From: Thermodesulfovibrionales bacterium
Lineage (GTDB): Bacteria > Nitrospirota > Thermodesulfovibrionia > Thermodesulfovibrionales > JdFR-86
Assembly (NCBI GenBank): GCA_030682405.1
Contig: JAUXOF010000008.1
Span: 1-47,505 of the forward strand
Direction: 5' to 3'
DNA: 47,505 bases
Position 1 is the first letter of the stretch, and every line of letters starts with the position of its first letter. A program made the translations under genes and the position numbers. Shown here in pieces: positions 14,597 through 33,037 of the stretch. Below the pieces are notes generated by a model. It was given only the letters and a program-made list of their open reading frames with translations. It had not been told where the DNA came from and made no database searches.

Positions 14597-15979
14597 CTAT
14601 TCGGAGCTACGAATGCCTTGCAATAAAGTAATTGAATATCTCTCATGTTGAATCGGATGTATCTTGGGAAATTTAGAATAAAGCCATCCCTTATAAATTT
14701 CTCGACCATTCTCAATTACTACAACTCTGATTGCAGGATTATTTGGTTCATTCGATGCAGAAGTAATTGTAGCACCATTTATAGAGAAATCCGGGAGAAA
14801 GTCACCAAGCATAATCTGCAAAGCAGTATCGCCATTTCCTATTAAGTAGTCGCTATGCAACTTTACGGCCACATGTTTTTCGCTTTGTTCAAATTTATCC
14901 TGCAATAAAAGAATTGCGCCTGTCCACGTTTTTTTAACTTCATCCGACATCTGGACAGTAACTTGGAGAGGGTTTTTCGGCATCTTCCTGCCGAACATGT
15001 CGTTGTATATTTTATCTGCTACTGCGCTTCTTTCCTCAGCAGTCGTGCTTCTGTAAACAGTTGGGGCTGGCGGGGTCTCAAGGTCGTCATTTGTATCTGG
15101 CGGGAACATGTCGTTGTATATTCTATCTGCTTCTTGCTCGTATATGTCGGGCATTATGGCGTCCCTTTTAGAAATAGGTTTTTGTTGATTTTCTTTTGGC
15201 ATATTCATCCTATCGCTGTACCCTTCAAAAACAGCAATGCAAATAATGCAAATATAGAGAATTATTACTGCGCTTACTCTAATGCCACCGATATGAGAAT
15301 GAGTAACGGTAAAATTAAACCTTTTATCCCATGCCGTTTTGCCATGTCTTTTAAGCTTTATATATGCTACCAACTGAGGGATAATTGGTATCGGCAAGCC
15401 CGCTACCAATCCGGCAAAATATATATAAATGCCTCTTTTTAGTGCTTCTGTAAAAGATAAGTCCCTACCGCGTTCATTGAATATTTTTATCCTTAAAATT
15501 GCTTTTGCAGGCGTATTCCCGAAAATTGAAATTACGAACGCCTCAACAACAAACACGAAAGGGAGTATTAATAAAGAAAAAACGTCCTCGCCGTATTTTC
15601 TTCCTAAAATATCTCCAGACCACTTTGGGAATACGAGGACGAATATAAGGCCGGTTAACAATCCCAATATAATTAAATCCAACAGTCTTGCCCAAAACCG
15701 CACCCACGGACGCGGAGGACTGTTTTTTAGCGGAGGATTGTTTTTTATTTGTTGGATGTACCAAGGGTGTTCAGTCGGCGCTTCGGGAGGCAAAGAATCA
15801 GACTCATCGGTTTGTTTATTAAAAATGCCTCGATATTCCGATGATTCACTCTCCGCCTTGTTAACTTTTAAAAAAGAACCCTCATCCAAATGACCGCCGC
15901 AAGTGGGACATAACAACATGCCGCCGGCAATGCCCTCAAAAACTGAGCCGCATTCAATGCATTTATAGTTCCGCATCAT
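14597..15979 (-). CDS. Zinc-ribbon RDD-family membrane protein with C-terminal soluble domain
   Basis: The product has an N-terminal zinc ribbon (YKCIECGS ... LCPTCGGHL, residues 5-30) and an acidic Pro-rich linker. An RDD domain follows with about three membrane helices, starting WVRFWARLLDLIILGL and including FGNTPAKAILRIKI. One more transmembrane segment (VSAVIILYICIICIAVF) precedes a C-terminal ~200-residue part of unknown function. Two copies of an A.(R/K)IYNDMF motif are 37 residues apart in that part. I start at the ATG at 15979 (tandem ATGATG), overlapping the AbiGi-like gene by 17 bp. The 16021 start would lie deep within that gene. Base composition is lower in GC than the neighbours. 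Function is unknown; the gene pair suggests it works with the AbiGi protein. Confidence 0.75.
   Translation of the reverse strand: MMRNYKCIECGSVFEGIAGGMLLCPTCGGHLDEGSFLKVNKAESESSEYRGIFNKQTDESDSLPPEAPTEHPWYIQQIKNNPPLKNSPPRPWVRFWARLLDLIILGLLTGLIFVLVFPKWSGDILGRKYGEDVFSLLILPFVFVVEAFVISIFGNTPAKAILRIKIFNERGRDLSFTEALKRGIYIYFAGLVAGLPIPIIPQLVAYIKLKRHGKTAWDKRFNFTVTHSHIGGIRVSAVIILYICIICIAVFEGYSDRMNMPKENQQKPISKRDAIMPDIYEQEADRIYNDMFPPDTNDDLETPPAPTVYRSTTAEERSAVADKIYNDMFGRKMPKNPLQVTVQMSDEVKKTWTGAILLLQDKFEQSEKHVAVKLHSDYLIGNGDTALQIMLGDFLPDFSINGATITSASNEPNNPAIRVVVIENGREIYKGWLYSKFPKIHPIQHERYSITLLQGIRSSE
14993..15131 (-). repeat. Intragenic direct repeat encoding the IYNDMF motif
   Basis: A 28-bp segment at 14993-15020 recurs at 15104-15131 with one mismatch (period 111 bp). 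Both lie in frame in the RDD-protein gene and encode A-D-(R/K)-IYNDMF. The bases are more alike than needed for the protein motif, so this is a recent or converted duplication. Confidence 0.8.
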
Positions 15980-16700
15980 CTGCCGCCATAATATCTTCGT
16001 AACAAAACACGGGGAATTCATGGGGATTATCTATTTTATCTCTCCAATTTCGCGGCGCTACAAGAAAAGCGACATTATCTTTGTCAAACCCAAAGAATTT
16101 TTCTTTCCCGTCCGTTTCTAAGCGGCCACTATAAGGAGGGTAACCTTCTTGTCTGGCTTGCCATTTAGGATTCGGCCGATTTAATTTTTCTGCGGGGATG
16201 AGCGTTTGCTCACCAAGTCGCCATTCCCGTTCGTAATAAAAAGTATCCTCTCCATCTGCGCGGCCCTCGGAAAACTGCTTAATAAAATAGAAGTGACGGT
16301 GCAGGGCTTGATATAATTTCACATCTATCGTCGCTTGTCCGACTTGCTCTTTTTGAAGAAATTTAAAAATCACATTTAGATCGCCCTTACAGGGATGGCT
16401 GGCATAGAATACAGGCTGTGCGCCAACGTTCATTAATTTTAATTTATGGAAGGCAACACCGAATTTTCCATAGTGCCTGCAATGTTTGACTGAATGACCC
16501 AGCGGCACATCAGTGAAACATACCATTTTCTCGTGAATTTCGTGATAGAGGTCAAAAATATGTAATCGGTTATAGGAGAGCAGAAGCCTGCAAGAAGAAG
16601 CGATTTTCGATAGGGTATCTGCGCCCTCCTCCTCGCCACCTTTTCCCGTCCAGTGGATGAGATGCTTGCTGATGTACCCATTATCTTGAGAGACAGTCAT
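15963..16700 (-). CDS. AbiGi-family abortive-infection protein
   Basis: The 245-residue protein matches my knowledge of the AbiGi family (first component of the lactococcal AbiG phage abortive-infection system, described as an antitoxin). The pattern includes HLIHWTGKG near the start, MVCFTDVPLGHSVKHC, then HYGKFGVAF, GAQPVFYASH and a YEREWRLG block at about residue 168. These residues fit an ADP-ribosyltransferase-like or DUF2971-like core, so a role in modifying or sensing nucleotides is possible but unproven. It has its own strong promoter and overlaps the zinc-ribbon/RDD membrane-protein gene downstream, forming a two-gene unit of lower GC than the flanks. The usual AbiGii partner is absent. 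Confidence 0.75.
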   Translation of the reverse strand: MTVSQDNGYISKHLIHWTGKGGEEEGADTLSKIASSCRLLLSYNRLHIFDLYHEIHEKMVCFTDVPLGHSVKHCRHYGKFGVAFHKLKLMNVGAQPVFYASHPCKGDLNVIFKFLQKEQVGQATIDVKLYQALHRHFYFIKQFSEGRADGEDTFYYEREWRLGEQTLIPAEKLNRPNPKWQARQEGYPPYSGRLETDGKEKFFGFDKDNVAFLVAPRNWRDKIDNPHEFPVFCYEDIMAADDAEL

Positions 16701-16717
16701 TTGTTACCACTGCCGTT

Positions 16718-16746
16718 ATATTAAGCAGCCACATCTTTCCTGTCAA
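16718..16746 (-). promoter_or_regulatory. Strong promoter of the AbiGi/RDD operon
   Basis: On the minus strand TTGACA (16746-16741) and TAATAT (16723-16718) are separated by exactly 17 bp. The start of transcription would be near 16711, leaving a leader of about 10 nt before the ATG at 16700. Confidence 0.65.
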
Positions 16747-32074: not shown

Positions 32075-33037
32075 ATGAACGAGACGGAATTGATCAAGGC
32101 AAGTAGAATAGGAGATGCTGATCGAGTCCAACAGCTTTTAGCTTCAGGAGCAAATGTGGAAGACCGAGATGAGCATGGCCATACCTCTCTTCATATTGCA
32201 GCGGATGCGGGCAATATAGAAGTTGTTAAACTGCTTGTCGCTCACGGTGCCCAAATTAATGCTCCTACGATTCTCTATGGGACAGCAATTAACTATACGC
32301 CGGTGTCGGCCGCCACATCCCGTGGCCATCTTGAAGTTACCAAGCACCTCTCTGAGAACGGGGCGATACTGTATGAGCGTGATGGGTACATGGGATTCTT
32401 TTCTGTAATGTTAGGCGCGGCAGCGAGTGGAAATCTCGATATAGTTAAGTATCTTCACGAGGAAAAGAAACTACCTGTTAATGAGGCGGATGGTATGGGC
32501 GTGACCCCTTTGAATATGGCGATTGAAAAGGCACATGAGCACATTGTTGCTTACCTATTTGAACACGGAGCGGATCCCAACAAGAAAATCGGCAGCATGT
32601 CATCGGCGCGCGAATACGTGCGAGAACGTTTGGTGTCGAATAAAACCACAGAAACAGCCAAGACAAACCTGCGAGTGGACCGGAAGGAAAAGCCGCCAAT
32701 GGCGGTACCCGCGGTCGATGATCTTGGGCCACGAAAAGAGCAAAGGGGGAGATTACCTATGAGTTGGCTAAGAAATTGGCTCGATATGCGCAAGGCGAGG
32801 TCGTTGGTAAAGAAGGACGAATGGGGCCGCGAAGCTGATTTCCTAATCGAGGATCACAGCAAAGAGTCCAAGAAATTGGTTCTCGATCACTTGACCACTT
32901 TGTTGCCTATATTGGAAGGCAGTCTTGCGAAAGTGCGTGAACTTCCAGAAGCGGACTTCGAGGCGGCTCGGGTCCGGGTCGAGTTTATTCGTAATCTAAT
33001 CCAATTCTGCGGCTTGAAAAAAGAACTGGGGCTATAA
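32075..33037 (+). CDS. Ankyrin-repeat protein with unknown C-terminal domain
   Basis: The 320-residue cytoplasmic protein has about five ankyrin repeats (residues 4-175), for example LLASGANVEDRDEHGHTSLH and AADAGNIEVVKLLVAHGA. A basic linker (about 180-225) and a helical C-terminal domain (about 228-320) follow, which I do not recognise. Ankyrin repeats bind other proteins, so the partner would define the role. Codon use (CGA, CGC, ATT, GTC) and tone differ from the ATA/AGG-rich neighbours, suggesting transfer. AGGAGG lies 13 bp before the ATG, farther than usual. It stands alone in a block bounded by short repeats and beside a toxin-antitoxin pair. Confidence 0.85.
   Translation: MNETELIKASRIGDADRVQQLLASGANVEDRDEHGHTSLHIAADAGNIEVVKLLVAHGAQINAPTILYGTAINYTPVSAATSRGHLEVTKHLSENGAILYERDGYMGFFSVMLGAAASGNLDIVKYLHEEKKLPVNEADGMGVTPLNMAIEKAHEHIVAYLFEHGADPNKKIGSMSSAREYVRERLVSNKTTETAKTNLRVDRKEKPPMAVPAVDDLGPRKEQRGRLPMSWLRNWLDMRKARSLVKKDEWGREADFLIEDHSKESKKLVLDHLTTLLPILEGSLAKVRELPEADFEAARVRVEFIRNLIQFCGLKKELGL

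Follow-up and report, generated by a model that had tools for sequence, protein, structure and literature searches.

An AbiGi-family gene and an overlapping RDD/DUF2155 membrane-protein gene in a low-GC segment of a Thermodesulfovibrionales genome

We asked whether two overlapping genes in the genome of a Thermodesulfovibrionales bacterium form a conserved defence pair. The window analysed was the whole of a 47,505-nucleotide stretch of contig JAUXOF010000008.1. A sequence-only reading of this DNA had proposed that an AbiGi-like protein and a zinc-ribbon/RDD membrane protein work together, the latter as a membrane effector of abortive infection. ORF A, ORF B and the features mapped on them lie on the minus strand. 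ORF A (15963-16700, 245 aa) was assigned to the AbiGi family (PF10899) from the list of open reading frames, Pfam and PADLOC matches and an AF2 model. ORF B (14597-15979, 460 aa) encodes a zinc ribbon, an RDD domain, a fourth hydrophobic segment and a DUF2155/ResB-like C-terminal domain. Its start was placed at the ATG just 5' of the zinc ribbon, at position 15979; an in-frame ATG further upstream, at 16021, would give a protein of 474 aa. The two genes overlap by 17 nt (15963-15979; a start at the second ATG would shorten this to 14 nt), and the overlap, ATGATGCGGAACTATAA, holds both the start of ORF B and the stop codon of ORF A (TAA, 15963-15965).

Both genes look foreign to the host bacterium in composition. 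The GC content is 0.439 for ORF A and 0.406 for ORF B, where the genes of the window average 0.518 (sd 0.034); for GC3 the values are 0.424 and 0.385, where the average is 0.629 (sd 0.074), making both genes outliers and bearing out the claim that the pair is poorer in GC than its flanks. The claim that it lies between ordinary metabolic genes also held: the downstream flank encodes proteins read by eye as MalQ (747 aa) and GlgC (408 aa), and the upstream flank, also by eye, a BioD/DRTGG-like protein of 355 aa and an acetyl-CoA synthetase-like protein of 712 aa. The malQ-glgC side is collinear with one relative (G002) and the opposite side with two others (G006 and G017), so that the gene pair sits at a synteny break between two blocks. 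No empty site proving joint insertion was found, the glgC and 355-aa-protein regions being non-adjacent in the relatives. A promoter of its own had also been claimed for the pair. A sigma-70-like site, TTGACA-N17-TAATAT (16718-16746), which matches the consensus at 10 of 12 positions, is indeed present 17 nt upstream of the ORF A ATG, but the support that this consensus match gives is weak because promoter-like sites are no commoner in the region (7) than in shuffled sequence (6.1). Elsewhere in the window, an ankyrin-repeat gene (32075-33037) has a GC3 of 0.495, below that of its neighbours. No other recognised defence system was found within the window, where the PADLOC matches at 1e-10 look generic.

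ORF A belongs to the AbiGi family, as had been read from its sequence. It scored 51.3 bits against PF10899, for which the Pfam gathering score is 22.4, and matched the PADLOC AbiGi model (PDLC02331) at 1.2e-13; against the NCBI AbiGI equivalog NF042957 it scored 21.4 bits, far under the cut-off of 300. The suspected kinship with DUF2971 gained support from profile comparison, in which hhalign gave a probability of 84-89% and a score of 48.8 against a maximum of 20.8 with shuffled columns, indicating that the AbiGi and DUF2971 families are homologous. Across 25 relatives, H16, P66, P96, Y99 and R158-E159-W160-R161 of ORF A are invariant, a pattern suggestive of an active site. The AF2 model is of good quality (pLDDT 81, pTM 0.82); a Foldseek search of the PDB with it returned no significant solved structure, CteC and TreX appearing at noise level only, and profile searches of the PDB returned nothing significant. 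An ADP-ribosyltransferase fold was considered on the strength of an H-x-T/G...E motif pattern. We keep this reading as a lead without support, because Foldseek gave no significant match and hhalign against DarT gave 0.4%, inside the shuffled range.

The distribution of ORF A relatives is sporadic. None was found among 40 close genomes, and of 396 genomes of the phylum 7 contain PF10899. Scanning one genome per species with a single peptide pattern, and so incompletely, recovered 21 relatives. The closest belong to other lineages, one in Ca. Manganitrophus (69% identity) and one in a Nitrospinia MAG (58%). Phage and plasmid records yielded no relative, and among viral contigs a single contig carrying one was recovered, in two scans. 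The Manganitrophus relative (L019:10001-10756) diverges from the family past about residue 195, as if frameshifted. AbiGi had been said normally to pair with AbiGii, and we saw no such partnership: PF16873 had no match in this genome or in 24 other AbiGi-bearing genomes, although the absence of AbiGii is not proven, because the search matched nowhere and was run without a positive control.

AbiGi genes are mostly single, and some lie within defence operons. In one genome (G140, contig C18; L163:9110-11619) AbiGi comes third in a Pycsar operon, after PycTIR and PycC, all three in one orientation and separated by 12 and 122 nt; the arrangement may be a three-gene variant. The Nitrospinia relative (L018:1585-4463) lies 272 nt upstream of a DRT unit made up of SLATT (PADLOC, 4.5e-42) and the UG17-type reverse transcriptase RT_UG17 (6.6e-151), with a HigB-like toxin gene further downstream; a NucC-like gene was found near another AbiGi (L034). 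At 1e-15, genes neighbouring AbiGi had matches to 58 PADLOC families, and an equal-sized control of 85 genes from the glgC and P0004 regions of relatives had matches to 9. This excess comes from a crude comparison and is suggestive only, because families and not systems were counted and the control was drawn from other genomes.

ORF B matched RDD (PF06271) with 63.3 bits against a cut-off of 24.1, over residues 89-219 (15323-15715), and the characteristic R (WAR), D (LLD) and D (WDK) positions are present. At its N-terminus, residues 5-30 (15890-15967) hold two CxxC pairs (C7, C10, C24, C27), a zinc-ribbon-like motif that stays below the Pfam cut-offs (17.3 against 34.4) and is to be read as a motif only. 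Hydropathy showed four hydrophobic segments, the fourth at residues 231-253 (15221-15289), followed by a soluble C-terminal region. The description of the overlapping partner as a zinc-ribbon/RDD membrane protein with a soluble C-terminus was thus accurate. In the linker, a 31-nt direct repeat (14993-15023 and 15104-15134, spanning 14993-15134) encodes two ADxIYNDMF motifs. RDD relatives of ORF B have swapped ends, with a J-domain N-terminus, a TPR C-terminus or a zinc-ribbon-like N-terminus. In four membrane proteins (L089, L090, L093, L094) a J-domain at the N-terminus precedes RDD segments in one chain, and two of the four end in TPRs. The nearest RDD relative (48-50% identity) lies amid genes that by eye look like those of a mobile element, resolvase-like and primase-like.

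The C-terminal domain of ORF B (residues 337-460; 14600-14971) is related to a lipoprotein found across the order and to the periplasmic domain of ResB. Its match to DUF2155 (PF09923) is marginal, because only the isolated domain clears the cut-off of 27, with 28.2, and the full protein scores 26.3; all 16 members of the C-terminal-domain family match DUF2155. The last 120 aa are 40-55% identical to proteins of about 165-200 aa with a lipoprotein-like N-terminus, and the DUF2155 lipoprotein occurs in 38 of 41 genomes, this genome included. The domain is 52-55% identical to homologs in the order's other families, against about 50% to the paralog in its own genome. It matched a protein confirmed as ResB weakly (E 3e-4), and Foldseek with the model of the domain gave CcsBA as top hit (E 9e-3, probability 0.99). 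The structure prediction for ORF B covers this domain only, and full-length alignments were misaligned. Given these two relationships, to the lipoprotein and to ResB, the C-terminal domain probably lies outside the inner membrane, and we infer a topology with the zinc ribbon inside and the ResB-like domain outside. The conserved DUF2155 lipoprotein of the order (for example L117:8317-8901), itself related to ResB, has a possible link to cytochrome c biogenesis.

The pairing of these two proteins was not seen elsewhere. In a tblastn search with ORF B, none of 26 other AbiGi neighbourhoods contained an RDD relative (the longer neighbourhoods total about 430 kb, and the set includes two near-duplicate loci), nor did AbiGi stand beside the nearest RDD relatives of ORF B. 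Because the combination is absent from the other genomes examined, a defence pair is unsupported as a conserved unit, and failure of the two genes to co-occur had been named beforehand as the finding that would speak against it. A defence setting is seen for some AbiGi relatives in other genomes, within or next to defence operons. A membrane effector is likewise not supported: the C-terminal domain comes from a common family of envelope lipoproteins and ResB-like domains, and the RDD proteins described in the literature include a Na+/H+ antiporter (PMC5996927) and a protein that regulates a membrane protease (PMC7568657), roles of antiporters or membrane-complex subunits and not of pore-formers. 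A functional link between ORF A and ORF B is unproven; the close overlap and the similar composition would fit just as well a functional pair that is too rare to turn up in our sample.

We favour, with a probability of about 0.6, a recently acquired low-GC two-gene segment consisting of a standalone AbiGi gene and an acquired gene for an RDD/DUF2155 envelope protein, probably co-transcribed. ORF A would be a small soluble standalone accessory protein, spread horizontally and at times riding in defence operons. It would most likely act alone, as a host-protective or toxic enzyme using its conserved HxxG and EREWR positions, and is possibly defensive. ORF B would be an inner-membrane envelope protein of the phylum's modular RDD family, with its predicted zinc ribbon in the cytoplasm, its RDD segments in the membrane and its DUF2155/ResB-like domain in the periplasm; a role in the envelope, in ion movement or in redox chemistry seems likelier for it than that of a phage-triggered pore. 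The nearest competitor, though an unlikely one, is that AbiGi was inserted by chance directly upstream of the RDD gene, its 3' end coming to overlap the start of that gene, so that the two would share a transcript but not a function. Standalone AbiGi is the rule in this sample, the genes lie at a synteny break, and the C-terminal domain is slightly nearer to homologs of other families than to its own paralog, as a separate acquisition history would have it; yet both genes are similarly foreign in composition, which one acquired segment explains at least equally well.

Somewhat less probable still is a two-component defence unit, in which the periplasmic ResB-like domain of the RDD protein would sense envelope or phage-entry stress and control a soluble AbiGi effector at the membrane. 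The 17-nt overlap, the low GC3 common to both genes, the single candidate promoter that would serve both and the occurrence of AbiGi in defence operons elsewhere all agree with it, but the pairing is missing at the 26 other AbiGi loci, RDD relatives occur without AbiGi, and the C-terminal domain comes from a housekeeping-like lipoprotein family. We give little credence to the more specific idea that AbiGi is a divergent ADP-ribosyltransferase-like enzyme placed under a trans-envelope zinc-ribbon/RDD/ResB-like sensor. Least of all do we expect a toxin-antitoxin pair with AbiGi as the antitoxin and the RDD protein as a membrane toxin. It would suit the order of the genes, with A preceding B as is common in such operons, and the Pfam description of AbiGi as 'antitoxin'; against it, AbiGi is found alone, a toxin role of RDD proteins is not described in the RDD literature searched, and the Pfam label is itself weakly founded, because a published E. 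coli screen found no toxicity for either of the lactococcal proteins AbiGi and AbiGii (PMC3985639).

AbiGi carries the label of antitoxin in a two-gene Abi system. The family members in our sample are mostly single genes, with one in a Pycsar operon and another next to a DRT unit, and the family is related to DUF2971; this makes the standalone AbiGi protein, and not the pair, the better subject for experiment. Should the ORF A-ORF B pair prove to work as one after all, it would represent a new, envelope-coupled type of defence.

The locus resembles the lactococcal AbiG system in its AbiGi domain family and its bicistronic layout, and differs from it in the partner, which is an RDD/DUF2155 protein here and AbiGii there. 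Relatives in PF10899 share the conserved positions of ORF A. DUF2971 (PF11185), named in one paper of the literature searched, which says next to nothing about it, resembles AbiGi along the CF-[DE]IP...FGxxF segment spanned by the profile homology and, by eye, in similar H-Y/F-T and E-x-EWR motifs; it is nevertheless a distinct family, and only 1 of 25 AbiGi members touches DUF2971 in Pfam, weakly (E 0.097). For ORF B, the J-domain/RDD/TPR membrane proteins of the same order (L089 and L090) share an RDD core, 48% and 35% identical, and a modular layout, but a J-domain takes the place of the zinc ribbon and TPRs that of DUF2155. The DUF2155 lipoprotein carries a lipoprotein signal, whereas in ORF B the same domain is fused behind RDD membrane segments.
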